A model generated the notes under the pieces. It made no database searches, had not been told where the DNA came from, and worked only from the letters and a program-made list of their open reading frames with translations. Shown here in pieces: positions 36,489-55,282 of a DNA stretch of 64,000 nucleotides (position 1 is its first letter; every line of letters starts with the position of its first letter). Made by a program: the position numbers and the translations under genes. This stretch comes from Frigidibacter mobilis (GTDB taxonomy: Bacteria > Pseudomonadota > Alphaproteobacteria > Rhodobacterales > Rhodobacteraceae), in the NCBI RefSeq assembly GCF_001620265.1, contig NZ_CP012661.1, positions 1,736,001 through 1,800,000 on the forward strand, written 5' to 3'.

Positions 36489-36677
36489 ATGTCCGCCCCC
36501 GTCACCCTGTCCGACCTTCAGAAGATGCACCGCATGGCTGCCGCGCTTGTCGTTGCCGATCCGATCTATTTGCCGATATTCGAGCGGATCGAACATGAAC
36601 TTGCGACCTATGAGGCGAAGACCGATGCCGTCAGCCGCGCCCATGCTGTCGCTGCCCGTCACAAGGCTGCGGCCTGA
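36489..36677 (+). CDS. Small hypothetical protein (62 aa) beside the integrase
   Basis: MSAPVTLSDLQKMHRMAAALVV..., helical, no Cys, ends AVAARHKAAA. The amino-acid mix looks like a real protein (mixed charged heptads, coiled-coil tendency), and it converges with the recombinase gene, overlapping it by 19 bp. No ribosome-binding site better than a weak CCCC-rich leader. No known family. It could belong to the same mobile element as the recombinase. Confidence 0.5.
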   Translation: MSAPVTLSDLQKMHRMAAALVVADPIYLPIFERIEHELATYEAKTDAVSRAHAVAARHKAAA

Positions 36678-37951
36678 AGCAGGCTCTGCTTCTGTTCCAG
36701 CGTGGCCCCGTCACCATAGCGTTCGCGTGTCAGCCGATGGCCGAACAGGTCGCGCCTGATCCGGTCATCAATCCCGGCAGCCAGCATCCGGTCTTCAAAG
36801 GCATGGCGCAGTGAGTAGAGGGTGTGATCGTCGCTTTCCATCAGGCCGTTGTCGCGCATGAACTTGTTGACGGTGGCCGACAGGCTGGCGCTGTTCTGCT
36901 GGTAGCGCGGAAAGCCACCGGGGAAGGCCCGCAAGGCTTCCAGCGACACGCCCAGCAGGGGCACGGTGCGTTTGGCATACTTGCTCTTGACCTGCCGCCC
37001 CTCGGGCTCAATCGAGATGTGGGGAACATTGTGGTCCAGCCGGGTCGTGTTCGCTGTCAGCGCCGCCAGCTCCGAGGGGCGGCAGCCGGTGTTCACCATG
37101 ACAAGCAAGATCGCTCTGGCCTCGGGGTTCAGCCCGTCCAGCGCGCCTTCCTTCAACAGCTTTTCCTTGATCCACTTGACCGAGAACGGCGGGCGCTTCT
37201 TGGCATCGCCTTCCTTGAAGGAGAGATCGGTAAGCGGCAGCACCAGCCCGAGACGCTTCATGCGGTTCACAGTCTTCAGCACGTCGCCGAGGTGGATCAG
37301 GTCTTTGTTCGCGCTGTTCGGGGTCAGGTCTTCCTCGTCCAGCCGTTCCATCCACCAGTTGCGGAAGTTCAGCATGTCGTCGCCGGTGATGTCCTTGATC
37401 GCCTTGTCACCCACGACCGCGATGAAGTTCTTCACCGACTTCATCCGTGGATTTTTCCAGCGCCGAAGCAGGCCCTCGGACTTGCCAAGGGTCTTGTCCT
37501 TCGCCAGCGTCCAGTAGAGTTCCAGCGCCTTGCTGACCGTCAGGGCTGGCTCTGTCGCGCCGCCAAGCAGGGCTGTTGCGTCCCGCATGTCCGGGCTGTC
37601 GGGTGTGTCCTTGAACCCCTGCACGGCGGCGAACCTGTCGCGCAACTCGACCAGTGGCAACTTGGCGGCCTGATCGGCGCGGACCTAGCGAAAGCCCCGT
37701 GCTTCGGCCAGATCGCGGGCGGCAGCGAAGCGCTGATCTGCATCGGTGCTGTCACCGGCCAGCTTGGCCTCCCATGCCGCGATCATGTGTTCCCAGGTCG
37801 CGGCCTCCTTGGTCCTTGCGACCGAAGGGGAATCCGTATGCAGACTGATCCAGACGAACTTGCGCGGTTCTACCGAGGCGTAGCGCTTGGGAACGCGCTT
37901 ATAGAGGTAGAGAGTGCCCTTCACGGACTTGTCGCGCGTGGTGATCGCCAT
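36659..37951 (-). pseudogene. Tyrosine recombinase (phage-type integrase) with in-frame TAG
   Basis: About 430 codons in one unbroken frame except TAG at 37685-37687, after DLAEARGF-R and before VRADQAAKLPLVELRDRF. Tyrosine (TAC or TAT) would fit at that place, so a single base change is enough. Core residues: NTGCRPSELAAL (first Arg), YAKRTVPL region, HTLYSLRHAFEDRM (His-x-x-Arg) and LFGHRLTRERYGDG (His and nucleophile Tyr). The N-terminal SAM-like domain begins LTVSKALELYW. Transcribed leftwards away from the attL repeat at 38090. Inactive unless the stop is suppressed or an error. Confidence 0.85.
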
Positions 37952-38260
37952 ACCCTTGCCTCCTGACTACACAGGGAAGGTGTAGCACAGTTTGTAATGC
38001 AAAATGTATAGCAGATTTTGGGCGGGTGTAGCGCATACCTAGCGAAAGCCGTTTAAAAACAACGTGCTAGCGCAGATAAAAAATTTGGTAATGGCGGAGA
38101 GACAGGCCGCCACGAACAAGTTGCCACCTGTGAACATGCATGGATATTTATACTGCTATTTCAAGTAAGTAGGTTGACGTCCTGTAATCATCGATTGCAA
38201 TCTGTAGCGATCTATAGCCATCTTTTGGGCAGGTAGTTGGATGGATAGGAGCGCGTTGGA
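37952..38260. other. AT-rich intergenic region between two integrase genes
   Basis: About 310 bp, clearly richer in A and T than the flanks. Holds the attL-like repeat (38090-38106) and should contain the divergent promoters of the two integrase genes. A 14-bp direct repeat, ACCTAGCGAAAGCC, occurs at 38037-38050 and again over the TAG of the left integrase (37683-37696). No gene seen. Confidence 0.55.
38090..38106. repeat. attL-like direct repeat (17 bp)
   Basis: AATGGCGGAGAGACAGG, identical to the 3' end of tRNA-Ser at 48168-48184. It lies 154 bp upstream of the P4-type integrase gene. After position 38106 the sequence departs from the tRNA. Confidence 0.82.
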
Positions 38261-39601
38261 ATGCCGAAAGTTGCTAAGGAACTGAAGCCCGCCGCCGTGG
38301 CCTCGCTTAGGCATGACGGCAGGGCCGGTCACGCCTTCCATGCGGTAGGCGGCGTGTCAGGATTGCTCTTACAGGTTACCGCAACGGGTGGACGATCATG
38401 GATCATGCGGGCACGGATCAAAGGTCAGCGCAAACACCTCGGGCTTGGCTCCTTCCCCGAAGTCTCGCTTGCTGAAGCGCGCCGCCGGGCCGCTGACGTT
38501 CGTGACGCGATCAGAACCGGGGCTGACCCTGCTGAAGCATGGCGCATCGGTGCAGCGGCGCGTGACCTGATGGCGAAAGGCTACGCGCAGGGCGAGGCAT
38601 GGGTGACCGCCCGAAACCAACGAGAGTCTGTCCAGTCAGGGGCGGTGGCTGCAATGAAGCTGAGCTTCAGCAAGGCTGTTGACGAATACCTGAAAACGAA
38701 GCTGACAGAGTTCAAGAACGACAAGCACCAAAAGCAATGGCGCAGCACACTGGACACCTATGCGCGTCCGATCATCGGGGAAACATCTGTTGATAAGATC
38801 ACAGTTCACGATATTGAACGAACACTGACGCCCATTTGGGATACGAAGACTGAAACAGCTTCCAGATTGCGTGGACGCATTGAAAACGTCCTTGCGTGGG
38901 CAACTGTGAAGAAACACCGGACGGGCGACAACCCGGCCCGCTGGAAAGGCAATTTGGACGCAGTCATGCCCAAGCCGTCCAAGGTCGCCAAGACTGACAA
39001 TCAACCCGCATTGCAACTGAAAGATGCGCCGGTATGGTGGAAAGCGCTGAAGAAACGTGGCGGAATGGGCGCTCGTGCACTGGAATTCTTGACCCTCTGC
39101 GCCAGTCGCTCGGGTGAAATACGCGGCGCTCGATGGGATGAATTCACCGATCTGGACGGCGACAACCCGATGTGGACCATTCCAGCCAGCCGCATGAAAG
39201 CCGGTGCTGAACACCGAGTTCCGCTATCCCCTGCCGCCGTTGCCGTTCTGGACGCTCTGCCACGCAGCCCGGAATCGCCTTTCGTGTTCTGGGCTGCGCG
39301 CGGCGGCATGCTTTCCGACATGACGATAAGTAAGGTCATGCGCGACATGCAGGAGGCCGCTATAGCGAAGGGCGAAAGCGGTTGGCTGGACCGCGTGAGC
39401 AAGCGGACTGCCGTTCCCCACGGGCTGCGCAGCACCTTCCGCGATTGGGTCGCCGAGAAAACCGACTATCCCCGCGACATGGCCGAAATGGCGCTGGCCC
39501 ACACAGTCGGGTCTGAGGTCGAGAGGGCCTATAGGCGCGGCGACATGCTCGAAAAGCGGCGCGCCCTCATGGTCGATTGGGCGACTTTCCTGAATGGATG
39601 A
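38261..39601 (+). CDS. P4-type integrase (tyrosine recombinase, DUF4102 N-terminus)
   Basis: 446 residues. The N-terminal domain (AVGGVSGLLLQVTATGGRSWIMRARIKGQRKHLGLGSFPEVSLAEARRRA) is the DUF4102 arm-binding domain of P4-family integrases. The catalytic domain shows all residues: CASRSGEIRGARWDE (Arg), RMKAGAEHRVPL (Lys), VPHGLRSTFRDWVAE (His-x-x-Arg), LAHTVGSEVERAYRRGD (His and Tyr). These enzymes use the 3' end of tRNA genes, in line with the repeats. Start has AGGAG 9 bases upstream. The next gene starts inside the last codons (ATGGATGA overlap). Confidence 0.94.
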   Translation: MPKVAKELKPAAVASLRHDGRAGHAFHAVGGVSGLLLQVTATGGRSWIMRARIKGQRKHLGLGSFPEVSLAEARRRAADVRDAIRTGADPAEAWRIGAAARDLMAKGYAQGEAWVTARNQRESVQSGAVAAMKLSFSKAVDEYLKTKLTEFKNDKHQKQWRSTLDTYARPIIGETSVDKITVHDIERTLTPIWDTKTETASRLRGRIENVLAWATVKKHRTGDNPARWKGNLDAVMPKPSKVAKTDNQPALQLKDAPVWWKALKKRGGMGARALEFLTLCASRSGEIRGARWDEFTDLDGDNPMWTIPASRMKAGAEHRVPLSPAAVAVLDALPRSPESPFVFWAARGGMLSDMTISKVMRDMQEAAIAKGESGWLDRVSKRTAVPHGLRSTFRDWVAEKTDYPRDMAEMALAHTVGSEVERAYRRGDMLEKRRALMVDWATFLNG

Positions 39602-40169
39602 CGATAAGCGGGCGCAGATCGATGCCGCACGGGCCGCAATGGGCTTCACAGGGCCTATCCCCGGAGCGGGCGAGGCGTTGCGCATGGTGCAGCGGCACGG
39701 GGATTTCTCGGGCATCAGGACGCGTCTCCAACTCGGGATTGCGTTGATGACCGAGGAACTAGCCGCGCTGGATCGGCTGGACAAGGGTGACAAAGCGAAG
39801 ACGGGCAGGAAAGACCCAGATGCAGCCTTTGAGACGATTGCCTGCCTGCGTTGGCTTATCGAAGTGGATGGCATGAGCGCGGCGACTGCCCGGAGCATCG
39901 TTGCCGAAATGATGGACACCACGCCCGGCGCGATCAAAGCTCGCGTGGCACGCGCGAAGGGCTTGGGCGAGAATATTGCGAGCCTCGCCTTCAATGTTCA
40001 TATGCAGCGGGGAATGCCGCCCGCCCTGTTGCGCGGTAGAACGCCAACGGGGCATTGCACCGCTTGCAAGCGTGTCCGCTGCAAATGCAGTCACTCGCCA
40101 CGTCCACCCTTCTTGGAAACGCCGGAAGGTGCGACCGTCACGGCCCTCTTGTCGCTCTGGTCGAGATAA
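39594..40169 (+). CDS. Hypothetical protein (191 aa) with Cys-rich C-terminal motif
   Basis: No family recognised. Helical N-terminal 150 residues (MTEELAALDRLDKGD, ETIACLRWLIEVDGMSAATARSIVAEMMDTTPGAIKARVARA, which could be a helix-turn-helix), then HCTACKRVRCKCSH, a possible zinc-binding knot of four cysteines and two histidines. Starts 8 bp before the integrase stop, so it is co-translated. Candidate directionality factor or element-specific regulator; this is guesswork from position. Confidence 0.7.
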   Translation: MDDDKRAQIDAARAAMGFTGPIPGAGEALRMVQRHGDFSGIRTRLQLGIALMTEELAALDRLDKGDKAKTGRKDPDAAFETIACLRWLIEVDGMSAATARSIVAEMMDTTPGAIKARVARAKGLGENIASLAFNVHMQRGMPPALLRGRTPTGHCTACKRVRCKCSHSPRPPFLETPEGATVTALLSLWSR

Positions 40170-40351
40170 TCGACCCTTGGGCGCGCCGTTGGATAGGTAG
40201 GGGCCGAATAGCCGTGCTTTATCTCGCGATTTCAACGCGCAACAGCGGACGGTCGCTCCGCCATGGAAAATGGGGTGCCCACCTGACTGTAGCGGGGCGT
40301 TAAAATCTGATCATACTGGGGGCATCAACTGCAAAGTACAGAGGATGCGAC

Positions 40352-40545
40352 ATGGCCCAAGAGCAACCAAAGAAGTACGTTTCCGTGAAGTTCCTTCAGG
40401 AAAGGTACGGAATCAGCAGAGAAACCGTGTATAAATACATGGCTGACTATAACTTTCCGAAACAAATCAAACTGACGCCCGGTGCAGCCGCTGGCTTCTG
40501 ACTGAAGTCGAATCTTGGGAAGCTGAAAGAGGCACATCGAAATGA
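40352..40545 (+). CDS. AlpA-like excisionase/regulator, frameshifted
   Basis: YVSVKFLQERYGISRETVYKYMADYNFPKQIKLTPG is a MerR-like AlpA helix-turn-helix. The frame then hits TGA, but the neighbouring frame continues SRWLLTEVESWEAERGTSK, which is how AlpA proteins end, so one base is missing near 40487. About 65 residues. AlpA switches on excision and integrase expression in P4-like elements. The stop overlaps the next start (ATGA). Confidence 0.8.
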
Positions 40546-40763
40546 AGCAAACGGGGGTGACAGAAGCTTTGAAAAAGAAATTTACACCTGAATCAGTAGA
40601 GATTCTTGTCACTTTGAAATCGGGTGCCAAGTTTCGGACAATGTGCGTGAAGTACGAATGGAATGAAGCATCTGGCAAGCTGATCATTTTCAGAGGCAAT
40701 CCATTTGCACCGAAGCAAATGTTCAAGAACACCGTTCTACATGTCGAGCAAATATCACCATGA
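40542..40763 (+). CDS. Hypothetical protein (73 aa) coupled to the AlpA-like gene
   Basis: MKQTGVTEALKKKFTPESVEI, beta-rich and basic (VTLKSGAKFRTMCVKYEWNEASGKLIIFRGN), ending EQISP. No family recognised. The ATGA overlap with the upstream gene's stop indicates translational coupling. AT-rich. May be a small DNA-binding or accessory protein of the element. Confidence 0.65.
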   Translation: MKQTGVTEALKKKFTPESVEILVTLKSGAKFRTMCVKYEWNEASGKLIIFRGNPFAPKQMFKNTVLHVEQISP

Positions 40764-41147
40764 AGAAACCGCCCGGCGTGTGCCGAGGCGGTCTGCTACC
40801 CGCGCGCCGGGAGAGGATTGACCCATTGGCGCGCCTTTAAATATTGCAGGCCTTCTCTCCCAATTGCAAGCCGCTTTCCTGTTGACCGGGAGTGCGAAGC
40901 AGTAATAATGTCAGGATACCGTTTGCGAAGCGATGAGATAGCCGAGGCAGGTGCGACTTTCCCCTAAAGGGACTGCTGCCCGGCACCTTCTCAGCACGGA
41001 ACGGTCGGATCGAGGGCGGATGCCCAGGACGGTCGCAAGGGTTGGATGACCCATGCCGGGGAAAACCCGGAGCACCGGGCCGGATGGTTCGACAATCGCA
41101 GAGGTTCGCACCTCTTATCTCATCAAATCAATAGTGGGAATTTCCCA
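40764..41147 (+). other. Structured non-coding leader upstream of the primase gene
   Basis: 384 bp without a gene. There are several short hairpins: ACCGCC..GGCGGT at 40768-40792, then a chain at GGGC-GGAT-GCCC (41014-41025), GGGT-TGGATG-ACCC (41039-41052), CCGGG-GAAAA-CCCGG (41056-41070), AGAGGT-TCGC-ACCTCT (41100-41115). The palindrome TGGGAA-T-TTCCCA (41135-41147) abuts the ATG. Could be an RNA leader, a small RNA or replication-origin DNA. Confidence 0.45.
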
Positions 41148-43569
41148 ATGAACAATCTTGCGCAGTCGCCAGTGGGCGACCCGTCGAGCTGTGACTTTAG
41201 TCAAGCACAAGCTTGGATACGCGCGCTGACCGGCAGTGAGTTTGAAGCCGTTTTCAACTGGCGATTCATCCATGATCAAGACAAGGCCCGCCCCGCAATC
41301 AAGCGGCGTGGAACGCTGTCGCAGATTTGGAATGAAGCCTGCCACTGGAACGCCGCCGGATATGGCGTGTTCGCGACCGTCAATGAAATGGACGGCACAG
41401 GTTATACCGCCGATAGTCAGCCGATCAAGGGCCAGTCAGGGGATATCGGAGAACACGTCCAAACGATCAGGGCCCATGTTGTCGATCTGGATAACCTGAA
41501 CGCTCTGCAGAACCTAGAGCGGGCGAAAAATCACTTCCCGCCGCCACAATTTGCCGTTCAGTCGTCGCCCGGAAAGGCACATGTTTATTGGGTATCACAT
41601 TACCCGGCGAACCTTGAAACCTACCGCAATATCCAGCGAAAATTGAGGCAACTCTATGACGGCGACAAAGCCGTTGTGGATGCAACGCGAGTGCTACGGG
41701 TGCCCGGCTTTCTGCACCAGAAAGGCCAGCCGCACCTTGTGACCTGCTACGCCCTGCCCGGATATGGAGTCCCCCTCCTACAAGGCGCACTGGCGGCCTC
41801 TGTGGCCCATGTGAACGCCCCGGACGAAGGCGGCGGACGGCACTCACTGGGCACAGCCGATCTCGCAGCCCCATCGGCTGACTGGGCGCGCTATGCACTG
41901 GATTCCATGCCCGTTGATGGCATGTCGCATCCGGAGTTCATATCGTTCACAGCCGCATGGAAGCAGGCGGCATGGGCGTTGCTTGACCACAATGAAGCGC
42001 GGCAACTCTGGCTGCAATGGTGCGAACGGTTCGGTGCAGAGTCCAAAGGAACCGATTACAATCTGAAGCACTGGGAGAGCATCACCGAAACAGAGTTGGG
42101 TTGGCGCAGCCTTCTACGGCAGAACCCAAACCTGAACGCTCAGTTTATGTTTCAGGGCGCAAACTATAGCCCCGTTATAAGGCCACGGCTCGCCGAACCC
42201 GGTCCGATACCAACTGCATCGCACCGCTCTGCGGTCACAGCTTGGGAAGACGGAAAGCACCCGCTGTCAGATCAATTTGGAACCATACTGACAGCGGAAG
42301 AATGTGCTGAGTGGTTTTCCGGCTGCGCGTTTATTTCTTCGACCGGCGAAATGTTCACACCTTTTGGAATGCTAAAGCAAACCGCATTTAACGCGAAGTA
42401 TGGAGGAAAGAGGTTCATAATTAACCCAACCGGAGCGCCAGCCGACGAGGCGTGGAAAGCCGCAACCCGTTCCGTTTACTGGACCGTCCCAAAAATTGAC
42501 ACACTAAGGTTCATACCAAGCCAACGCTTTGCGGAGATTCGGCAGGATGAATTGGGGCGAATGTCATTGAATATATACCGCCCTGCGACCATTGAGAAGG
42601 TGAGTGGTGATCCCGCGCATTTCTTGCACCATCTTTCTTTGGTGTTGCCCAATGAAGGCGATCAGAAAATTCTACTAGACTATCTAGCGCACAACGCTAA
42701 GTTTCCCGGCTATAAAATCCCTTGGCGCCACTTATTCAGTCGGCTGAAGGTATCGGCAAGGGTGTTTTTAAACATGTTATGCAGCACGCAATAGGGCATA
42801 GCTACACATATTTTCCGAACGCGAAGTTGCTGAACGATAGCGGATCGAAATTTAACGCGTGGATGGATCAGAAGCTATTCTTCATCGCTGACGAAATTAG
42901 AACCGATGAAAAACGCGACATGGTGGAAGTGCTAAAGCCCATCATTTCCGAAACGCAACTTGAAATTCAAGGCAAGGGCACCAACCAAGTGCAATCGGAC
43001 AACCCCGGCAACTGGATGTTTTTTAGCAACCACAAGGACGCGATTCCGGTGAACGATAGCTCACGGCGCTTCGCTACCTTCTATAGTCCGATCCAGTCCT
43101 ATAGCGACCTTGAAGCGCGACAGATGGACGACTCATACTTTCGCTGGCTGTTCGACTGGTTGGGTGTGGGCACTCACCGCACCGGCCTGAAAATCGTGGC
43201 AAACTACCTACTCGACTACCCGATTGAACGCGGTGCGATCCCTATGCGCGCCCGCGCACGTCAAGTCACGCGGAAGCGGTCAGGGTGAGCCTTGGGCCAA
43301 TTGCGTCTGCGATCATGGACGCGATAGAAGGTGAAGAACCGGGCTTCCGTGGCGGATGGATCAACCGCGACCTTGCGCGTGAACTGATGAAACGGGACTA
43401 CTCGACGCAGGTCATCACCAAGGCGATCACAGAAGACCTTGGCGGGCTCTACATCGGGCGTCACAGCACGCCGGTCTTTCAGGAGCGGGGCCGGAAACCC
43501 CGTCTGTACCGGATAGGGGAATGGCGGGCGATGCAGCATTACATGGCTGATCAGGGCTACCCGGTGTGA
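41148..43569 (+). CDS. Primase / SF3-type helicase (DUF5906) replication protein, two frameshifts
   Basis: About 807 residues when three frames are joined. N-terminal part: bifunctional primase-like fold with THVVDLDNL-type acidic motif (RAHVVDLDNLNALQN) and QSSPGKAHVYW. The central part ends KIPW; a missing G near 42727 leads to APLIQSAEGIGKGVFKHVM, the P-loop of SF3 helicases, then FFIADEIRTDEKRD (Walker B) and DSSRRFATFYSP. A missing C near 43252 leads from IPMRA to RTSSHAEAVRVSLGPIASAIMDAIEGEEPGF, a winged C-terminus. Replicates the element. The piece starting at the GTG at 43285 is therefore not a separate gene. Confidence 0.85.
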
Positions 43570-43590
43570 ATTTTCGATTTTTCTTGAGAA

Positions 43591-43638
43591 ACGAACTGAC
43601 GGGCGACGCGACCCGTCAGTTCGTTTGGTCTTTTGGTC
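43591..43638 (+). terminator. Terminator after the primase gene, merging into the first repeat of an iteron array
   Basis: ACGAACTGACGGG, 8-base loop CGACGCGA, CCCGTCAGTTCGT: a perfect 13-bp stem 21 bp after the stop codon, then the T-rich TTGGTCTTTTGGTCTTTTT. The tail is the first copy of the repeat described next. Confidence 0.8.
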
Positions 43639-43847
43639 TTTTTCTGGTCCGCGTAAAGCATTGTAAATGCTGTCAGAAGCCCAGCTACCCAAAAAGCCCA
43701 AAAATGTGCTGTATGCCGCACAAGGACGGGGTGGAGGGTAACCCCTCGTTTCTGTATCTCTCTATATTTTTGGTCTTTTGGTCTTTTGGTCTTAACTTAT
43801 TAAGATCAACTACTTAACGGGACCAAACCGTGGACCAAAAGACCAAA
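43624..43847. repeat. Iteron-like array of TTTTGGTC units in both orientations
   Basis: The 15-mer TTTGGTCTTTTGGTC occurs at 43624-43638, 43769-43783 and 43777-43791 and inverted at 43833-43847. The middle cluster is three exact tandem TTTTGGTC octamers (43768-43791), a further single GACCAAA lies at 43821. The stretch between 43756 and 43810 is AT-rich. Position next to the replication gene suggests an origin or an operator array. Confidence 0.7.
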
Positions 43848-44082
43848 CCGGAATTTTCCGATCAATCCCCAGGAATTTTTTCGGCCGCGTCCCTATGTGC
43901 GCGCTGTGCACCACGGCAAGCACCAGCGGACGCCCCCTCCGCCATGGTGTTCAAGATTCAGATTGTTTCAGTGGGTCACTGGGAGTCCCCAAGGCCCTAC
44001 CTGTCATAGTGCCTATCCAAAATGACGATGGGGCGCACCAGCACCCCAACACAGATAGCGGTCAACGACCGCAGCAGCGTCT
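43848..44082. other. No gene recognised
   Basis: Frames here are open only in short runs and show no family motif. It may contain the lost N-terminus of the recombinase remnant that follows, in broken frames. Sequence is GC-richer than the array to its left. Confidence 0.4.
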
Positions 44083-44199
44083 GTGGCGCGTCGGGTTGGC
44101 ATGACCCCATTGCGCGGCCCTGTGGCGCTGCCGGAACGCAGGGATGCCATGGACAGATGGCGCGACCACGGACGCGGCACAGCAAGCCCCCAGAGGCGC

Positions 44200-44472
44200 G
44201 CTGATAGGCACCATGGCCGCGATGGCAGGGACGCAGGCAGAGAGGCGCAGCGGGCTGCAACAGCCCATGCCAGGACGGAAAGGGCGACGGCATACCGGGG
44301 GCGCAAACCGTCCTTCAATCGCAGGCAGTTCGACGCAGCCGAAGCACTGCTGGCCAGCGGTGCCCCGATTGCCCAGATCGCCAAGCTGTGCGGCGTGAGC
44401 CGTCAGACCGTCCACAGGTTCAAGACCGATCCGGCAGGGTGTATTGCAGCGCTGGATCGTTGGAATCTTTGA
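44200..44472 (+). pseudogene. C-terminal remnant of a serine-recombinase-like protein
   Basis: The end of the frame reads EAQRAATAHARTERATAYRGRKPSFNRRQF, then DAAEALLASGAPIAQIAKLCGVSRQTVHRFK, the hinge and Hin-type HTH at the end of resolvases and invertases. The N-terminal catalytic domain (with the serine) is not present in any frame upstream. Probably a remnant of a transposon or inversion system in the element. Other frames across this stretch are shadows. Confidence 0.6.
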
Positions 44473-44591
44473 TTCACTGCCGGTTCATTTGAACAGCACT
44501 TTGCAGTGTAACTGGGGACTGATTATAATTTCAGTCTAAGAATAGCTCCAAATTCAGATGCAATCTACAATTACATTTATTGAATAAATTT

Positions 44592-44620
44592 TTGTCAACT
44601 CCTTTGCCAATCCTTAGTAA
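44592..44620 (+). promoter_or_regulatory. Promoter candidate for the 250-aa gene
   Basis: TTGTCA, 17 bp, TAGTAA in an AT-rich 200-bp region, about 50 bp before the start codon. Followed by a full AGGAGG ribosome-binding site at 44660-44665. Confidence 0.5.
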
Positions 44621-44671
44621 ATAGGCCTTTATGGAGGCGTCGAATCGCAAAGCTTAACAGGAGGCAAAATA

Positions 44672-45424
44672 ATGCCGGAATTTGAACTTACGATCACTGG
44701 TGGCGGCGAAGCCGGATCAGGATTTATCGCTTCAACGCCGAAAGGCAAAGCAAGTGTCTATTGTATTGCCGCGCTCTCCGCCGAATTTCGAGAAATTGGC
44801 GCACTTGAAAAGTTGCTCTCTAGCACAATGAATCATCTTCAGGGTCGCAGTCTCGACGGGTATACTGGTAAGGCGTTCGCATTCGAGGTTGAAAATCAAC
44901 TTACGCAGATGCTGCCGACGCTGTCCGCTGCGATTTCCAGCGCTCAAGAACAAAACACCAAGCACGCAACCCGGCGCATTCAAATGCTGACATTTAATAT
45001 GGAAGCGCAACCCAACCAATTTATGCGCGCCGAACTGCGTAGTTGGTTCATGTCGCATGACATGCCAAACCGAATCCGATTGTTGAACAGTGCAGACTAC
45101 GCACTTGCCGTTTCTGTGCTTGAGGGTGGGAATGTCCTTGCAGGCATTGATGACCAATTGTGGAATCATTTTCTTGACCACGCTGCGGCTCTAATTTTTA
45201 TCAAAAAGGTTGCTTTGGATAACGGGTTCCGATTGAAGCCCACTGAAGAAAACTTGACCGCTCTTGGAACCGATCACCGTGCAGTTATGGATGCTGCGAA
45301 TGAAGCTGTGAAGCGTTACCATGCCGAAACTGAGTTGCTAAAACTTGCGGAAGTTTACCTCCAAAGTGTCGTGCGCGCGCTCATGCTGATCACCAACAAA
45401 TCCTTCGATGAAATTGTGTTCTGA
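44672..45424 (+). CDS. Unknown protein of the element (250 aa)
   Basis: No recognised family. AT-rich coding, unlike the chromosome. Starts MPEFELTITGGGEAGSGFIAS with a beta-rich N-terminus, then mostly helical (LEKLLSSTMNHLQG, ENQLTQMLPTLSAAISSAQEQ, ELLKLAEVYLQSVVRALMLI). No membrane segment, signal peptide or cysteine cluster. Has its own promoter and perfect AGGAGG, so it is expressed on its own terms, as cargo genes usually are. A role in defence or helper interference is conceivable but not shown. TGATG overlap with the next gene. Confidence 0.75.
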   Translation: MPEFELTITGGGEAGSGFIASTPKGKASVYCIAALSAEFREIGALEKLLSSTMNHLQGRSLDGYTGKAFAFEVENQLTQMLPTLSAAISSAQEQNTKHATRRIQMLTFNMEAQPNQFMRAELRSWFMSHDMPNRIRLLNSADYALAVSVLEGGNVLAGIDDQLWNHFLDHAAALIFIKKVALDNGFRLKPTEENLTALGTDHRAVMDAANEAVKRYHAETELLKLAEVYLQSVVRALMLITNKSFDEIVF

Positions 45425-45619
45425 TGAAACAGGCGGTGATTCCAGCGCGAGCGGTGATCACCGCCGCACAGCTTCAGTCCGAATTTTCGATCTACCCGCA
45501 ACTGAGGTATTCTTGGACAAAAACGCGAAATTTTCCCGCCCCATTGCAGGCGGGGGTTTAATCAGGCCGCTGTTATCGGGTGGTTGCGGGAAAATGGCTG
45601 GACGGTGGAGGTTGTATAA
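45424..45619 (+). CDS. Small unknown protein (about 65 aa), frame-disturbed
   Basis: First frame MKQAVIPARAVITAAQLQSE, ending AGV then TAA at 45559. One G too many in the GGGGG run near 45555 would restore FNQAAVIGWLRENGWTVEVV, ending TAA at 45617-45619, directly next to the GTG of the following gene. Coupled to the gene before by TGATG. The C-terminal AAVIGWLRENGWTVEVV has a helix-strand look. A competing 71-codon frame over the same bases is less likely. Confidence 0.55.
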
Positions 45620-46054
45620 GTGACAGATAAGCCGCAAAATTTCCCAACCAATAGCGATGGTTGGAGTCCCGAGCGTGGTGAAGGCGGTCGCTTCCTGCCG
45701 GGCCAAGGTGGACGACCAAAAGGGTCGAAAAATCGGTTCGCTGCGACCACAATGCAGGAAATTAAAAACCTAAAAGATGCCGCCATGACTGCCCTTGCCG
45801 CGCAAGTTGTGGCTGGCAATATGGATGCCGTTAAATTCATCCTGGAGCGGATTGTTGGTCGCCACAGGATGATTGAACTGGACGGCGGAACACCGGCTGA
45901 CGTGACAAATGCACTGGTTAACGGTGAAATTTCCAGCGAGGAAGCCAAGGCAATTGCGACTGTGGTCGAAAAATTGCGCCGGGTGGAGGATTTGGACGTT
46001 CTCGCCGCAAGATTGGAAGAACTAGAACGCCTTTTGAAAGGCGACTCGCTGTGA
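45620..46054 (+). CDS. DUF5681-containing protein (terminase-small-subunit-like)
   Basis: 144 residues with GTG start. GGRFLPGQGGRPKGSKNRFAATTMQEI is the DUF5681 motif, a basic DNA-binding sequence common in phage and satellite genes just before packaging modules. The rest is helical and acidic (EISSEEAKAIATVVEKLRRVEDLDVLAARLEELERLLKG), a likely oligomerisation coil. Could direct packaging or DNA recognition. Coupled to the next gene by GTGA overlap. Confidence 0.75.
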   Translation: MTDKPQNFPTNSDGWSPERGEGGRFLPGQGGRPKGSKNRFAATTMQEIKNLKDAAMTALAAQVVAGNMDAVKFILERIVGRHRMIELDGGTPADVTNALVNGEISSEEAKAIATVVEKLRRVEDLDVLAARLEELERLLKGDSL

Positions 46055-46341
46055 GACGTATCCTGAAATCGGTTCAATTTCTAGATGCCGCAATATCGGA
46101 AATTCGAGCGAATATGCCGCCCGATCCGTTGGCCGGGTTAACCGATAAGCAGCGCGCCATGGTTCGACGATACAGGGACAGTACCGACGCGGTTGATCAG
46201 TACATCAACTGCATAGAGGGCACTGGCCCGCTAGCAGCTTTGTCGGTCGGTGGCAGGATAACTGCAAACTGTACCGATGCCGAAGCCCAGGACGCATATC
46301 AGAAGCTGCTGGACGTGCGCCCGCAACTCGAAAGAAACTGA
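46051..46341 (+). CDS. Hypothetical protein (96 aa)
   Basis: GTG start overlapping the stop of the DUF5681 gene. MRRILKSVQFLDAAISEIRANMPPDPLAGLTDKQRAMVRRYRDSTDAV..., helical, soluble, no family recognised. Part of a tightly packed run of small genes in one operon from 44672 to 47075. Confidence 0.65.
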   Translation: MRRILKSVQFLDAAISEIRANMPPDPLAGLTDKQRAMVRRYRDSTDAVDQYINCIEGTGPLAALSVGGRITANCTDAEAQDAYQKLLDVRPQLERN

Positions 46342-46342
46342 A

Positions 46343-46786
46343 ATGAAACTGAACTGCACTATCTGGTTTGCTCCAATTCGCACGGTCATTGACCTGTCGT
46401 CTGAGACGTTTTATGCCGCCACGTCTTGTCCGCCCGAAGCTCTTAAAATTGATTTGATGGCTGTTGAACCTGACACGGACGTATCGCGGGTTGAGTCTAT
46501 GATGGACGGTGATTGCAAGCCTGTGAATGTCCTGTGGTTGTCCGGTATCGACACTGTTTCAATGATGGCAGTGTTAAAGATCACCGGACGCCTCAACAAA
46601 GGTCGGCGGTTCAATCGCCTGTTCTATACTAACCCATCGGAAGGCCTGAAAACGATCACCCGCCTTGCGTTCAAACTGCCCGCGCAAGGTGAGAACGAAT
46701 ATTTTAAGATGCGCCAGTATCGGAACAGCCCTGACTTGTGGACGGCCTTGCAAGACGCTGCATCGATGAACCATGCCCGTCATTAG
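46343..46786 (+). CDS. Hypothetical protein (147 aa)
   Basis: ATG at 46343 one base after the previous stop. Mixed alpha/beta: MKLNCTIWFAPIRTVIDLSS, DLMAVEPDTDVSRVESMMDG, KTITRLAFKLPAQGENEYFKMRQYRN. No family recognised. AT-richer than the core genome. Overlaps the next start by 14 bp. Confidence 0.65.
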   Translation: MKLNCTIWFAPIRTVIDLSSETFYAATSCPPEALKIDLMAVEPDTDVSRVESMMDGDCKPVNVLWLSGIDTVSMMAVLKITGRLNKGRRFNRLFYTNPSEGLKTITRLAFKLPAQGENEYFKMRQYRNSPDLWTALQDAASMNHARH

Positions 46787-47075
46787 GCTGAAACGGAACG
46801 TTCCGGGGGATGCAGTCGGCTGTCAGGCTCTATGGACTGCCGTGGTTGCGCGAGCGCTGCTTGATCTGACCAGCCCGCAAGAACTTGAGCGCATCGCCGC
46901 CGACCGCTGGTTTCGCCGTGGTGCCGATCTGCATCGCATATGCAGTCTAGCCGGGCTTGATGGCTCTGCTGTGCGCGAAGCATACCTTGCGGGGCGGTTC
47001 AATGCGGCGGCATTGGTAGGGCGCGATGCTGACGGCCAGCGCCGGACCCGACATCGGGTGCGGGAAGCAGTTTAG
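46773..47075 (+). CDS. Hypothetical protein (100 aa)
   Basis: MPVIRLKRNVPGDAVGCQALWTAVVARALLDLTS, then ELERIAADRWFRRGADLHRICSLAGLDGSAVREAYLAGRF, which looks like a small helix-turn-helix. Last gene of the rightward operon; the following gene converges on it. No firm family; it may be a regulator. Confidence 0.65.
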   Translation: MPVIRLKRNVPGDAVGCQALWTAVVARALLDLTSPQELERIAADRWFRRGADLHRICSLAGLDGSAVREAYLAGRFNAAALVGRDADGQRRTRHRVREAV

Positions 47076-47088
47076 CAGGAACTTCGCT

Positions 47089-47915
47089 CTATCTATACTG
47101 AGACAGGAACTCCAAGTTTGGAAGGCCGGGCATTGTTAGTTGTGAGCCGGCACGCTCCAATACTCTTGAATTCTTGATGGATTTTGCAAGCGGATTGATA
47201 AAATCATCCCCATCAGTCGCAAACGTTACGACCGTAAGCGAACCATGAAATGTCATGAATGAACCGATGATGCTGCGAAAGTCGGTATTATAGTTTAGCG
47301 AAAACTGCTTTCCTGAGACCTTGGCTCCTTGCTCCAGTTGCCCAAAGCCCGGCATGATAGATAGTATTTTGTGATATCCGACGTCCGGCATCCCCTGATT
47401 TAGATACCATTGTGTGAATATTAGGCCATTCATTTCAATAGGCCTACCTATATAGGTTGCAAACGCCGCCATTGCCATTTTAGCGGAAAATACATCTAGA
47501 TGGGCGCTGGTGGCGGGCCATCTGCATGCACCTTCATTACTGGATGCAACAGCCCGTTACGTTTGAGCATCGTCCATTCAGCGTTCTTCTTAAATAGGTT
47601 CAGTTCGTCCCCACATTTGGGCATGCCTAAAAATAGCGGGGATTATATGTTTGGTTTGCTGAAGTTTCCAATCGCTCACGCTGATAGGCTCAATTAATGC
47701 CATCAGTTGCGCAACCGCATCGGCCCGCGGCTTCCCTCGTTGCAACGGACGCAGCAAGCGAACTCCCAACCGCTCGGACGGTCCTTGCCTCGGAAAACGC
47801 CGCGAGGCGGCATGTGTTCGATTGTGCTAGGATTCCTGTTATCGCAGTACACGCATCTTCCTGCACTACGCAGCATTTCCGCGCGGCTTCGACTTCGGTG
47901 GCTTGCTTCGCCCAT
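47089..47915 (-). CDS. HNH-like zinc protein, several frameshifts
   Basis: About 275 residues if frames are joined. From 47915: RCVYCDNRNPSTIEHMPPRGVF and EFACCVRCNEGSRG give two CxxC pairs and the His of an HNH-like fold. The frame then shifts near 47725 to ADAVAQLMALIEPISVSDWKLQQ, again near 47620 (KNAEWTMLKRNGLLHPVMKVHADG), again near 47505 (TSAHLDVFSAKMAMAAFATYIGRPIEM) and runs to 47089 (TQWYLNQGMP, FRSIIGSFMTFHGSLTV). The four pieces appear in the order expected of one family. At least three indels, so real decay is possible. Confidence 0.6.
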
Positions 47916-48167
47916 TCCACGCCCTTTGAGAACACATGGCGTTGGAGCTGTGCGCCCACCGCTGGCGCACAGTCTGGAACGCTGGCCAAGCTACCTCAAG
48001 CCTCTGTACAGTCGAAGGGCGGTTTCTTCATCAGTTTGTAGCCGTCTGATGTGTCAGGACGTGGCGAACTGTAGCTTTCTGCATTGTTCTTGGGTGGATA
48101 GGCAGGTGCGCAGGCAGCCTCGCGGCGCTCGTCTCAAGTTGTTGATTTTGCTGGATTTATTATGATG
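47916..48167. other. Non-coding end of the element
   Basis: About 250 bp between the HNH-like gene and attR. The upstream part should hold the leftward promoter of that gene. Nothing else recognised. Confidence 0.45.
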
Positions 48168-48184
48168 AATGGCGGAGAGACAGG
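48168..48184. repeat. attR-like direct repeat within tRNA-Ser
   Basis: AATGGCGGAGAGACAGG, same as 38090-38106. It covers the CCA end, the discriminator and part of the acceptor and T arms of tRNA-Ser, so integration keeps the tRNA functional. Confidence 0.82.
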
Positions 48185-48259
48185 GATTCGAACCCTGGGT
48201 GGGCTCTCACCCACAACGGTTTTCGAGACCGCCGCATTCGACCACTCTGCCACCTCTCC
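48170..48259 (-). tRNA. tRNA-Ser (CGA)
   Basis: 90 nt with a long variable arm, as serine tRNAs have. Reading the minus strand: acceptor GGAGAGG pairing with TCTCTCC, D-arm TGGCAGAGTGGTCGAATGC, anticodon stem CGGT/ACCG around CTCGAAA (anticodon CGA), variable arm GTGGGTGAGAGCCCAC, T-arm AGGGTTCGAATCCCT, discriminator G and encoded CCA. Its 3' end is the target of the integrative element. Confidence 0.97.
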
Positions 48260-48821
48260 GCGTCAGGGGTCTTCGTGGAGCGGGGATTTAGCGGTCTCGG
48301 GCGCCGTCCGCAACCGGATTTTGCGGATCGGTGCCGAAATTCGTGGCGGGTTCGGAGACGGGGCGCTGGCGGGCGGTGAAGGGTTGCCTGGCGGGGGCGG
48401 AACTGGCGCCCCTGCGTCTGTGTCTGCCACCGGCCCGGCCCTGCGTCCTGGCCCAGCGCCTGTCCCTAAACTGGCCCCCGCAACCGCCCCTCGCCCGCGT
48501 GCCCCTGGCGACAGGCGGTGCCAAGGGGCGGGGCAGGGCGCTGCGTGAAGGCGGCCGGTCGTACTTGCGGCGTAACGGCGACCGAGGCCCGCACGGGGCG
48601 GGCAGGGCGCGCCTGGGAGGCCAGCCGGGTCAAGGTCCCCGGCCTCCCCTCGCCGCCGGGGCTCCCTCCGCCCGGAGCGCGGCACGGGGCGGGCCCCCTC
48701 ACGCCGCGCTCACGACACTGTTCCTGCGCGGGCGCCGTCGCGGGGGGCGGGGCGCCTTGCATTCCGGGCTGCGGCGGATACCACTGGCAGGGTAATACCG
48801 GCGCCGCCCCGGAAGGACCCC
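48260..48821. other. Intergenic, no gene recognised
   Basis: 560 bp, very GC-rich. Several frames are open by composition only, with Pro/Arg/Gly-rich translations and no motif. It should include the promoter of the tRNA (reading left) and that of the DUF2059 gene. Confidence 0.5.
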
Positions 48822-49715
48822 ATGCCCGAACACGTCTCGCCCCATCGCCTGCGCCGTCTCGCCGCGCCGCTGACGCTTGCCGCCGCCCTTGCGGTGGTCG
48901 CTCTCGCCCCGGCCGCGGCGCAAACCCCGCCGGTCCCGGTGCAAGAGAGTCAGGCCGCTGCCGAGGCCGCGCGGCTGGTCGAGGCCCTGCAACTGCCGGC
49001 GCTGATGGAGATCATGCAGCGCGAGGGCGTGGCCTATGGCGAGGATCTGCGGGCCGACCTCTTCCCCGGGCAGGGCGGCGCCGAATGGACGCGCAGCGTC
49101 GAGGGGATCTATGCGCCGGACCGGCTGATGCCGCTCTTCACCCAGGTCTTCGACGCCGAGCTGGAGGGCGCCGACACTGCCGCGATGCGGGCCTTCTTCG
49201 AGGCCGGCCCCGGGGCGCGCGCGGTGGAACTGGAGATCGCCGCCCGCCGCGCGCTGCTGGATCCGGGCGTCGAGGAGGCCGCCGACCAGCAGCTGGAGGA
49301 GATGCTGGCAGGGCAATCGCCGCGGTTGCTGGCGATCGAGGAGTTCGCCGAGGCAAACGAGCTGGTCGAGATGAACGTGCTTGGCGGGCTCAACGCCAAC
49401 CTCGCCTTCTACCGCGGCATGATCGACGGCGGCGGGCTGCCGCAGGAAACCAGCGAGGCGCAGCTCCTGGCCGATGTCTGGTCGCAGGAGGACACGATCC
49501 GCACCGAGACACGCGACTGGCTCTATTCCTACCTGGCGCTCGCCTATGCTCCGATGTCCGATGCCGAGCTGCAGGCCTATGCCGATTTCTCGCGCGGGCC
49601 GGCCGGACGGGCGCTGAACCGGGCGCTGTTCGCGGGCTTCGATGCGGTGTTCGCCCGCGTCTCCTACGAGCTTGGCCTCGGCGCGGCGCGCTACCTGGCA
49701 GGGCAGGATATCTGA
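48822..49715 (+). CDS. DUF2059 exported protein
   Basis: 297 residues. N-terminal signal peptide: basic RRLAAPLTLAAALAVVALAPAAAQ, with cleavage after AAA-Q or so. The rest is helical; the DUF2059 part is near the C-terminus (YSYLALAYAPMSDAELQAYADFSRGPAGRALNRALF). Periplasmic, function unknown. Stands before rplU but with 230 bp between, which contain a separate promoter. Confidence 0.82.
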   Translation: MPEHVSPHRLRRLAAPLTLAAALAVVALAPAAAQTPPVPVQESQAAAEAARLVEALQLPALMEIMQREGVAYGEDLRADLFPGQGGAEWTRSVEGIYAPDRLMPLFTQVFDAELEGADTAAMRAFFEAGPGARAVELEIAARRALLDPGVEEAADQQLEEMLAGQSPRLLAIEEFAEANELVEMNVLGGLNANLAFYRGMIDGGGLPQETSEAQLLADVWSQEDTIRTETRDWLYSYLALAYAPMSDAELQAYADFSRGPAGRALNRALFAGFDAVFARVSYELGLGAARYLAGQDI

Positions 49716-49748
49716 CGCGGTATTGCGCCCGATCTCGACCTGCCACGC

Positions 49749-49777
49749 TTGACTTTGCCGGGGCGATCATGGATAAG
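49749..49777 (+). promoter_or_regulatory. Promoter candidate for rplU-rpmA
   Basis: TTGACT, 17 bp, GATAAG, about 170 bp upstream of rplU, leaving a long leader that may carry control of L21 synthesis. Confidence 0.45.
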
Positions 49778-49947
49778 CCCGCATCCCGGCAGGCCCTGAT
49801 GGGCCGGCCCGGGTATGAATTGACGACACCACCTTACGAAATGACGCCCCGCAAGGGGGCGCGCTGTCCGAAGGCGGCGGGGGAGCCCCGCCACGAACTC
49901 CCGCAAGATGGGGGCCGCAGGACGCGGATGACATGAAGGAATGACCC

Positions 49948-50403
49948 ATGTTCGCGGTCCTCAAGACCGGCGGCAAGCAGTACAAGGTTCAGGCGGGCGA
50001 TGTGCTCCGCGTGGAACGGCTTGCGGCCAATGCTGGCGATAAAGTCCAGTTCAACGACATCCTGATGCTGGGCGGCGAGACGCTGACCCTGGGCGTGCCC
50101 TTCGTGGCCGGCGCCGCCGTGCAGGCCGACGTGATCGACGAGATCAAGGCCGACAAGGTCATCACCTTCCACAAGCGCCGCCGCAAGCACTCCTCGCAGC
50201 GCACCCGCGGTCACCGCCAGAAGCTGACCCTGCTGCGCGTCACGAGCATCCTCGCCGAAGGTGCCGATGCCTCGGGCGTGATGGCTGCCGTTGGCGCGCG
50301 CACCAAGCTGCCGGCCGCTGACGTGGTCGAAGCCCCCGCCGCGGCCGAAGCCGCCCCCGCCAAACCGAAGCGCGCCAAAAAAGCCGCTGAAGCACAGGAG
50401 TAA
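49948..50403 (+). CDS. rplU: 50S ribosomal protein L21 with C-terminal extension
   Basis: 151 residues. The first 103 are normal L21 (MFAVLKTGGKQYKVQAGD, VITFHKRRRKHSSQRTRGHRQKLTLLRV). The last 45 or so are an Ala/Pro/Lys-rich tail ending AKKAAEAQE, beyond the usual end. Binds 23S rRNA near L20. In the standard order rplU-rpmA-...-obgE. The tail is charged and may be disordered. Confidence 0.96.
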   Translation: MFAVLKTGGKQYKVQAGDVLRVERLAANAGDKVQFNDILMLGGETLTLGVPFVAGAAVQADVIDEIKADKVITFHKRRRKHSSQRTRGHRQKLTLLRVTSILAEGADASGVMAAVGARTKLPAADVVEAPAAAEAAPAKPKRAKKAAEAQE

Positions 50404-50409
50404 TCGCTC

Positions 50410-50679
50410 ATGGCACACAAGAAAGCAGGCGGCTCTTCGCGCAACGGCCGCGATTCCGCAGGTCGTCGCCTCGGCATGAAACTGTTCGGCGGCCAGGCTG
50501 CGATTCCCGGCATGATCATCGCCCGTCAGCGCGGCACCACCTGGTGGCCGGGCGAGGGCGTGGGCATGGGCCGCGACCACACGCTGTTCGCCGTGGTCGA
50601 AGGCCGCGTGTCGTTCAAGAAGGGCCTCAAGGGCCGTACCTTCATCTCGGTTCTCCCGGTTGCGGAGGCGGCCGAGTAA
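50410..50679 (+). CDS. rpmA: 50S ribosomal protein L27
   Basis: 89 residues. [22 protein letters not shown] is the L27 N-terminus that reaches the peptidyl-transferase centre; the rest includes [27 protein letters not shown]. Complete and 6 bp after rplU. Confidence 0.98.
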
Positions 50680-50707
50680 GCCGAACCTTTACAATCTCGG
50701 ATGTAAA

Positions 50708-50740
50708 GGGGGATCGGCCGGCAGGGCCGGTCCCCTTCTT
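50708..50740 (+). terminator. Hairpin terminator/attenuator after rpmA
   Basis: GGGGATCGGCC pairs with GGCCGGTCCCC around a 5-base loop, followed by TTCTTCG. 29 bp after the rpmA stop. Some read-through into the small gene and obgE is possible. Confidence 0.6.
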
Positions 50741-50763
50741 CGTTTCAGGAAAGGCCCGTTATC

Positions 50764-50961
50764 ATGGGCATGATCGCAGAAACTTTCAGCCGCGTCGCGC
50801 TTGGCCAGGGCCTTGCGCCGCAGATCGCGGTCCAGCCGCGCCCGGCGCATAGCGCCCCCCGTGCCGTGGCAATGCGCTTGGCCGCGCCGATGCAGGGCGG
50901 ACCGCTGGCGTTGGCCGCGGTGCAGGGCCTCGTGGGGCTGCTCCGCGGGCCGAGGCCATGA
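50764..50961 (+). CDS. Small hypothetical protein (65 aa) before the acetyltransferase
   Basis: MGMIAETFSRVALGQGLAPQ..., ending LVGLLRGPRP. Basic, with a short hydrophobic stretch near the C-terminus (LALAAVQGLVGLL). The stop overlaps the ATG of the acetyltransferase (ATGA), which suggests real translation; AGGAAAGG lies upstream. No family recognised. Confidence 0.6.
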   Translation: MGMIAETFSRVALGQGLAPQIAVQPRPAHSAPRAVAMRLAAPMQGGPLALAAVQGLVGLLRGPRP

Positions 50962-51527
50962 CCGCCGCGCCGCTGGATGCAAGCCCGCAGCAGCTGTCCC
51001 CGCAGGTGATCCCGGCGGAGCGCTTCGTGTTGCGCCCGCTGCGCCGCTCCGATGCCGGGCTGATCTCGATGTACACCGCCGACCGCCGGGTCGCCGAAGG
51101 TACCCGCGCCATCCCGCATCCGCTGCCCCCCGGTGCGACTGAGGCCTTCATCGCCCGTGTCACCGGCACGCCGGCCCCGGGCGGCGCGCATGAGGATGTC
51201 TGGGCGCTGGACGGCTCGGCGCATGGCCTGGCCGAGGTGCTGGGGCTGGTCTCGCTCACCCATATGGAGCGCGACCAGTCCGAGGTCGGTTTCTGGGTGG
51301 CACCCGCCTTCTGGAACACCGGCTTCGCTTCCGAAGCGGTCGCGGCCCTGATCGCGGCCAACCCGCACCGCTCGCGCACCCTCTTCGCCGAGGTGTTCCA
51401 GGATGCCCCGGTCTCGGCCCGGGTGCTGTCCAACTGCGGCTTTGCCTATCTTGGGGATGCCGAAAGCTGGTCGGTCGCCCGCGGCGCCCGGGTGCCGACC
51501 TGGACCTATCTGCGCAAGATGGGCTGA
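50958..51527 (+). CDS. GNAT-family N-acetyltransferase (RimJ/RimL-like)
   Basis: 189 residues. ERFVLRPLRRSDAGLISMYTADRRVAEGTRAIPHPLP is the usual opening of RimJ-type enzymes; EVGFWVAPAFWNTGFASEAVAALIAA carries the acetyl-CoA loop, and RVLSNCGFAYLG is the C-terminal motif. Acetylates an amine of a protein or small molecule; the substrate is unknown. Coupled to the small upstream gene, upstream of obgE. Confidence 0.88.
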   Translation: MTAAPLDASPQQLSPQVIPAERFVLRPLRRSDAGLISMYTADRRVAEGTRAIPHPLPPGATEAFIARVTGTPAPGGAHEDVWALDGSAHGLAEVLGLVSLTHMERDQSEVGFWVAPAFWNTGFASEAVAALIAANPHRSRTLFAEVFQDAPVSARVLSNCGFAYLGDAESWSVARGARVPTWTYLRKMG

Positions 51528-51574
51528 CCGGGCAGGGGGCTTTGCGCCCCCCACGCTCTGCGGGCTCCCCCCGC

Positions 51575-51639
51575 AGGATATTTACAACAAGGCAAAGGGG
51601 CAGGGTCAGCTTCATCCTTTGCCTTGTTGTAAATATCCT
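51575..51639. repeat. 24-bp perfect inverted repeat with ATATTT motif
   Basis: Arms at 51575-51598 and 51616-51639 are exact inverse copies of 24 bases, beginning AGGATATTTACAACAAGGCA, separated by 17 bases. The right arm continues into CTCGGGGGG, the same motif as at 5934 and 61408. It can fold as a long stem between the GNAT gene and obgE, a possible bidirectional terminator or dispersed element. Confidence 0.8.
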
Positions 51640-51767
51640 CGGGGGGTGAATTGGCGCGGCACGCGCCAAGAGGGGGGCAGATGGCCCCCCTTCCTCCCTT
51701 ACCGCCCTGCGCAAGCCTTGATCCCTGCGCGCCAAGGGGCTATCGCCTGTTCCCGACCTTTATCTGA

Positions 51768-53923
<2,156 letters not shown>

Positions 53924-55258: not shown

Positions 55259-55282
55259 CGGCGGGCGCGTGGGGCGGGGCGG

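Follow-up and report, generated by a model that had tools for sequence, protein, structure and literature searches.

A 10.1-kb island at the tRNA-Ser(CGA) gene of Frigidibacter mobilis is probably a decayed member of a satellite-like family of alphaproteobacterial islands

Which kind of mobile element occupies the 3' end of tRNA-Ser(CGA) in Frigidibacter mobilis? The question concerns a 10.1-kb island within a 64,000-bp stretch of the chromosome (contig NZ_CP012661.1, positions 1,736,001 to 1,800,000), which is hereafter called the window and to whose numbering the coordinates refer. The island is flanked by two identical 17-bp repeats located by repeat search, a left one that copies the tRNA-Ser 3' end (38090–38106, +) and a right one that is the 3' end (48168–48184, +) of an intact tRNA-Ser(CGA) gene identified by ARAGORN and Rfam (48170–48259, −). 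A search of the 4.99-Mb genome with up to one mismatch detected these two copies only. With up to three mismatches the window again held two copies, compared with a mean of 0.21 in shuffled sequences, of which 2 of 100 reached two matches. The GC content of the island is 54.7%, versus 66.9% at 1–36600 and 68.5% at 48185–64000. These features mark the island as a discrete insertion into the tRNA-Ser(CGA) 3' end. An original prediction, which described a P4- or PICI-type satellite, had placed both repeats, the intact tRNA and an integrase 154 bp inside the left repeat at these positions, and every one of these placements was confirmed. We consider the island to be probably a decayed member of a family of small alphaproteobacterial islands that would work like the phage-inducible chromosomal islands (PICI) or phage-inducible chromosomal minimalist islands (PICMI). 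The satellite behaviour of the family is inferred by analogy with PICMI.

Gene families were called with Pfam at its curated cutoffs and, for ten open reading frames (ORFs), with PHROGs; together these scans covered most island ORFs, though not every small one. The left end encodes a tyrosine integrase of 446 amino acids (aa; 38261–39601, +), for which Arm-DNA-bind_3, Phage_int_M and Phage_integrase scored above cutoff. It is overlapped over 8 nt by a 191-aa ORF (39594–40169, +) that gave no Pfam family above cutoff and is 61% identical to the ORF at the same place in an island of Paracoccus pantotrophus (L116). The following AlpA-like regulator (40352–40540, +) was recognised by its similarity to the L116 AlpA (85% over 39 aa), which itself scored 37.2 bits against PF05930 (cutoff 21). 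When read from the ATG at 40352, it meets a stop after 49 codons, and the similarity carries on in another frame. Beyond a 73-aa ORF with no Pfam or PHROG match (40542–40763, +) lies a RepB_primase/DUF5906 primase-helicase (41046–43569, +), whose domains exceeded the cutoffs of PF16793 and PF19263 on separate pieces. Relative to the single 739-aa ORF of Paracoccus shanxieyensis (L086), this gene occupies three frames and is broken near 42.7 kb and again near 43.2 kb; a 94-aa ORF at 43285 is its C-terminal piece. Behind it, eight copies of TTTGGTC or its complement form an iteron-like array (43624–43848), the top 8-mer of which occurs six times, a number reached by 0 of 100 dinucleotide shuffles. 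The array is a likely origin. The AlpA-like regulator and the primase-helicase beside a repeat array were both present as originally described, and neither gene is intact.

Since AlpA and primase are frame-broken, this copy is probably unable to excise or replicate alone. It is probably dead or decayed, unless the breaks are sequencing errors; if they are real, no normal AlpA or primase would be made. Such sequencing indels may have occurred, because a chromosomal gene at about 24904–27596 (−), which is 95% identical to a 948-aa ORF of the congener G001, is likewise split over two frames. A split was flagged in 4 of 34 flank comparisons, some of them arising from antisense or overlapping ORFs.

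The right part of the island starts with an ORF containing a resolvase-type HTH_7 domain (44083–44472, +; PF02796, 40.4 bits, cutoff 23.8), which also gave a sub-threshold helix-turn-helix (HTH) match to Terminase_5 (E 0.015). It is followed by a 250-aa protein (44672–45424, +) that is mainly helical by prediction (structure model with a predicted local distance difference test score, pLDDT, of 88.9). Four other proteins, every one metagenomic, matched it at E ≤ 0.001, and its model found no match at this threshold in PDB and BFVD. A small HTH gene (45435–45619, +) is probably frame-broken, as suggested by weak two-frame matches at 45.42–45.62 kb to HTH proteins of L086 and L089 (E 2e-4 to 0.02). 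The next gene encodes a DUF5681-like protein of 144 aa (45620–46054, +), which the original prediction had named as a DUF5681 gene. It is homologous by blastp to its positional counterparts (31–43% identity) and falls below the Pfam cutoff of PF18932 (23.5 versus 27.5 bits; 24.2 bits in the genome search), a cutoff passed by the relatives in L152, L154 and L163. Its structure model was poor (pLDDT 61.0, predicted template modelling score 0.28). A 96-aa ORF overlaps this gene by 4 nt (46051–46341, +), followed by a 147-aa ORF without a family match (46343–46786, +; 28% to a 154-aa ORF of L086, E 2.8e-6) and a 100-aa ORF without a Pfam match (46773–47075, +; 38% over 68 aa to an L116 ORF). Next to the tRNA, weak matches revealed HNH/PtuB-like gene fragments that look like cargo remains (47089–47915, −). 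The piece at 47703–47915 (−) matched PtuB in PADLOC at E 2.3e-4 and HNH_5 below cutoff at E 0.012, and the piece at 47089–47478 (−) appears by eye to be the remainder of that gene. No capsid, tail, relaxase or conjugation model of Pfam or PHROGs reached its cutoff among the scanned island ORFs, in agreement with the earlier statement that capsid, tail and conjugation genes are missing.

Relatives were collected with a helicase alignment of four sequences and a pattern scan of a genome collection, so that the counts are lower bounds. The pattern fitted 188 stretches, of which seven encoded a relative, giving six loci, which belong to P. shanxieyensis, Mesorhizobium albiziae, Aquamicrobium defluvii, Seohaeicola zhoushanensis, Palleronia marisminoris and a Bradyrhizobium metagenome-assembled genome. 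A helicase scan of IMG/VR gave 24 loci. The DUF5681 protein was found downstream of the primase in all six named-genome loci and in 1 of the 24 IMG/VR loci, and the other 23, in which neither an integrase nor DUF5681 was matched, were excluded from the count of elements. The gene order from primase to DUF5681 hence recurs in other genomes. Relatives of the window integrase lie upstream of the primase in 4 of the 6 genome loci; in Palleronia an upstream integrase was seen by eye with weak similarity only, and the P. shanxieyensis contig ends before the integrase position. The 250-aa protein was recognisable by blastp in L086 and L088, and the 147-aa ORF in L086, their counterparts elsewhere being positional. 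Overlap of int by the next ORF was noted in 7 of 12 islands compared, and overlap of the DUF5681 gene with its next ORF in 8 of 11. Iteron-like repeats behind the primase exceeded 100 of 100 shuffles in the window, L086, L089 and L090.

The Palleronia island spans 10.1 kb in tRNA-Cys(GCA) with a 53-bp repeat, and the Mesorhizobium island 13.2 kb in tRNA-Ser(TGA) with a 15-bp repeat. The islands of P. shanxieyensis and Aquamicrobium adjoin tRNA-Ser(CGA), their other ends being off the contig, and for L089, L091 and L092 no repeat with a tRNA was found. Together these loci define islands of about 8–13 kb where both ends are seen, which follow the plan integrase, AlpA, primase-helicase and iteron-like repeats, then a recurring block (a 250-aa-type protein, an HTH protein, DUF5681 with its coupled small ORF, and an ORF of about 150 aa), and variable cargo beside the tRNA. 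In a helicase tree, from which the split or distant L111, L114 and L115 were left out, eight element rows lay on one side of a branch and 21 phage or viral rows on the other. This branch had a support of 78/79, appeared in 76% of bootstrap trees and was obtained in 0 of 500 shuffles, which suggests that one origin of the element helicases is likely. A further locus, L025, was not counted as a member of the family, as portal- and terminase-like ORFs were seen by eye beside its related helicase. It extends over 10.3 kb at tRNA-Phe (L025:1728-12045) with a 42-nt repeat (98%), a DUF5906-type helicase and an integrase, and resembles either a short prophage or a satellite that forms its own capsid.

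An empty site was sought for the island and for its near relative in P. pantotrophus. The tRNA-Ser(CGA) gene is present in all four congeners, where its other flank differs from that of the window, and no clean empty site for this exact copy was found among them. In the congener G002, a possibly shared stretch of about 110 bp behind the tRNA aligned at 83% together with the tRNA and, alone with the tRNA tip, at 66% over 131 columns. The P. pantotrophus island, on plasmid pPAN3, is bounded by 15-bp repeats (positions 8735 and 16298 of L116) at tRNA-Ser(CGA). Its integrase is 79% identical to that of the window, and AlpA and primase are also present. A DUF5681 protein was not found, and what appears by eye to be a transposase-like ORF interrupts its right part. 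The L116 flanks are joined without an island in Paracoccus ferrooxidans pFER4 and Paracoccus versutus pBEN, the empty-site junction being 87% identical over 113 aligned bases. In P. versutus UW1 pTAV4 (L172), the L116-type flanks at the same tRNA-Ser(CGA) site enclose another island, which measures about 18 kb and encodes a DUF3987 primase as well as an integrase with 55% identity, and in P. denitrificans only the right L116 flank was matched within the stretch compared. A clean empty tRNA site hence exists for the near relative, on two Paracoccus replicons, and was not obtained for the copy in the window.

For this copy no empty site can be demonstrated because its left flank consists of a second integrase and insertion sequence (IS) genes in a rearranged part of the chromosome. 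The second integrase (36659–37951, −), which was absent from the original prediction, contains DUF6538 and Phage_integrase domains by Pfam and one in-frame stop, and lies outside the island; IS-type genes stand further left. Its relatives adjoin tRNA-Ser(GCT) in G002 and tRNA-Ser(GGA) in G004, at loci where portal-, capsid- or RecT-like ORFs were labelled by eye. About 140 bp separate its start from the left attachment (att) repeat, so that the att site of the island probably holds, or once held, a prophage-type element in tandem. A 20-bp direct repeat (90%) was noticed at 37677–37696, inside the second integrase at the stop, and at 38031–38050, before the gene. In G001 and G002, tRNA-Ser is followed by genes that by eye resemble cydBA; in the present genome these lie 212 kb off and inverted (G000:C1, about 1784170 and 1996323). 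Judging from this gene order, a rearrangement has affected the chromosome to the left of the island.

Among the published plans that we found, that of PICMI, known from Vibrionaceae, comes nearest. According to PMC10803314, no complete PICMI occurs outside Vibrio, excision needs int, an int-overlapping gene and alpA, and full replication needs prim, while alpA expression alone suffices for activation. Further PICMI features are the fis site as a hallmark, an average size of 6.7 kb, a gene overlapping int in 21 of 35 subfamilies, a primase of the DUF3987/DUF5906 type, and packaging as concatemers by a virulent helper. The island resembles PICMI in its small size and in carrying int, an int-overlapping ORF, alpA and a DUF5906 primase in that order, with cargo beyond prim and no capsid-remodelling gene recognised, although alpA and prim are broken in the window. 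The 191-aa ORF occupies the position of the PICMI int-overlapping gene, a positional likeness. The island differs from PICMI in being alphaproteobacterial, in residing at tRNA-Ser(CGA) instead of fis, in its size of about 10 kb, in the RepB_primase N-terminus of its primase, in which Pfam found no DUF3987, and in its extra block with DUF5681.

Other satellites share parts of the plan. Gram-negative PICI have in common with the island a similar size, a specific att site and the plan of integrase, AlpA and primase. Unlike them, the scanned island ORFs include no recognised terS, ppi or capsid-size gene, and it is possible that an unrecognised analogue of the PICI packaging genes resides in the DUF5681 block. 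P4-like satellites also combine a tyrosine integrase at a tRNA with AlpA and a primase-helicase; the N-terminus of the island primase differs from theirs. The P4 effector genes are psu, sid, delta and epsilon, and none of these families scored above cutoff in Pfam or PHROGs among the scanned island ORFs. Nor do these ORFs include the own capsid, portal or terminase genes by which capsid-forming PICI (cf-PICI) are distinguished. The closest primase-helicase of a named phage is that of Rigallicvirus (Rhizobium phage P106B; 57% over the helicase piece), which is a 56-kb phage; in its locus, taken from an IMG/VR contig of equal length (L098), neither the integrase nor the DUF5681 protein of the window was matched. 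The assignment to a P4/PICI type hence stands for the plan of integrase, AlpA, primase and tRNA, and does not for packaging or capsid-size genes. A literature search that did not extend to the main SatelliteFinder and marine-satellite papers found no paper describing alphaproteobacterial satellites of this plan, which may have been listed before. Of the undescribed alphaproteobacterial satellite family proposed originally, recurrence in alphaproteobacteria was borne out, and satellite status would still follow from analogy.

The DUF5681 protein was traced in a wider set, in which its profile matched 17 of 387 alphaproteobacterial genomes, including that of the window. Thirteen DUF5681 loci from 12 of these genomes were compared. 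An integrase was present in seven by profile, five of which had trained the profile, and in six by blastp, and tRNA repeats were present in three (4.7 kb at tRNA-Leu, 5.8 kb at tRNA-Arg and 11 kb at tRNA-Glu). A second IMG/VR scan yielded at least 16 DUF5681 loci, and an integrase was found in 2 of the 10 that were scanned by profile. Neither genome contigs nor viral contigs yielded a relative in scans with the DUF5681 alignment A1, the DUF5681 queries gave no match to plasmids, and the L087 protein none to phages; a single phage record, MT836812, was hit by the L152 protein. Profile matches numbered 8 and 9 in G562 and G622, two genomes that belong to one genus; the loci L148 and L158 from them contain no integrase of island type and represent another DUF5681 context.

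Single virion-part genes accompany some of these loci. In P. shanxieyensis an 831-aa tape-measure protein is encoded by the last gene before tRNA-Ser(CGA), the interval from primase to tRNA showing no further tail gene. According to PMC12987554, PLE satellites form chimeric tails with their own tape measure, and satellite-borne tape measures comprise PLE and putative cf-PICI cases. L086 resembles these, its tape-measure gene not being accompanied by any visible full set of tail genes; the window copy has neither a tape-measure nor a capsid gene, and its core is different. Near DUF5681, L173 and the fecal record MT836812 (L163) hold neck and tape-measure genes, and head-completion, small terminase and large terminase genes lie beside DUF5681 in L178. 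These three are short contigs in which no integrase was found, and they may be phage pieces. Two weak candidates were discarded, namely the 250-aa-type protein of L086 as a head-tail adaptor (E 0.011) and a 105-aa ORF of L087 as a tail chaperone (E 0.013). The idea that DUF5681 is a small terminase came from PMC8954984, in which a Salmonella phage genome oriented from the large terminase has a DUF5681 gene at 46,936-47,355. It was set aside, as L178 has DUF5681 beside its own small and large terminases and as phage Jersey, whose kinship to that Salmonella phage was not established, has an annotated terminase without a Pfam match. MmeI-type restriction-modification genes were noted in the IMG/VR contigs L174 and L178, and in L175 and L180 DUF5681 stands beside long ORFs matching PHROG families labelled endolysin, which are possible virion enzymes.

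If the cycle resembles that of PICMI, AlpA would rise when a helper phage infects, upon which the integrase would cut the island out, and the primase would replicate the circle from the iterons. The island would then travel in helper particles, which the DUF5681 block would adapt, together with a tape-measure gene in some members, and the cargo may protect the host. We suggest more tentatively that DUF5681 and its small partner could mark an alphaproteobacterial satellite class whose members would reside at tRNA 3' ends, replicate by a small module, Rigallicvirus-like or other, and carry single virion parts, and in which a common adaptor might re-engineer the tails or packaging of different helpers. 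The tape measure of L086, the neck and tape-measure genes of L163 and L173, and the head-completion and terminase genes of L178 could then be virion parts of this class.

Several observations weigh against a satellite family. The helper, the circular form and packaged island DNA are postulated by analogy, none having been seen, and no packaging gene was recognised in the scanned island ORFs. The PF04860 HK97-type portal was not found in this genome (control positive in 4 of 14 genomes), which indicates that it has no resident helper of the HK97-portal type. DUF5681 occurs without a nearby integrase of island type in 6 of the 13 loci, the iterons were not above chance in L088 (10 of 100 shuffles) or L091 (26 of 100) and marginal in L087 (2 of 100) and L092 (5 of 100), and the branch for a single helicase origin reached a support of only 78/79. 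Moreover, L163, one of the tape-measure contigs, also carries a Mob_Pre gene.

This last gene bears on the alternative that survives best, an integrative mobilizable element that would excise, replicate and leave the cell by a conjugative apparatus supplied in trans, which would act on an origin of transfer (oriT), and not in phage particles. An integrase, a primase and a tRNA site fit such elements too, and two relatives lie on megaplasmids that are typed by PLSDB with conjugation genes. However, no relaxase was matched among the scanned island ORFs, in a search that did not extend to oriT, and the plan of AlpA with primase and iterons, as well as the virion-part cargo of relatives, points to phages, which makes this explanation unlikely. 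A degraded prophage that has lost its structural genes would account for the broken island genes, the 57% relationship of the primase to Rigallicvirus phages and the adjoining prophage-type integrase. Against it, loci from several families repeat this compact gene order with no full complement of structural genes, the primase being uninterrupted in named members such as Palleronia marisminoris CECT 7066, Mesorhizobium albiziae DSM 21822 and Seohaeicola zhoushanensis KCTC 42650, and DUF5681 was beside the primase in 0 of the 23 other IMG/VR loci (blastp E ≤ 1e-4; contigs of limited length). The relatives hence do not show the gene set only as prophage remains, and we consider this origin very improbable. 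Gene transfer agents are known in Rhodobacterales, and a defence or cargo island moved passively by them or by generalized transduction, with no dedicated satellite, would suit the HNH, PIN and GmrSD-type proteins in the cargo of relatives, yet it has just as little probability, as the conserved integrase, AlpA, primase, iteron-like repeats and coupled DUF5681 pair exceed what passive transfer needs.

Under the preferred reading as a satellite-like family, the named members provide material for testing alphaproteobacterial satellites and the role of the DUF5681 block. L086 (Paracoccus shanxieyensis DK608) is possibly a further satellite with its own tape measure, and the family adds a likely way in which small defence cargo spreads.

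Outside the island, a repeat of about 165 bp was noticed in the window at about 23543–23705. Rfam gave no match in the surrounding 20000–27000, and dozens of copies of the repeat were counted in this genome and in the congeners G001 and G002.

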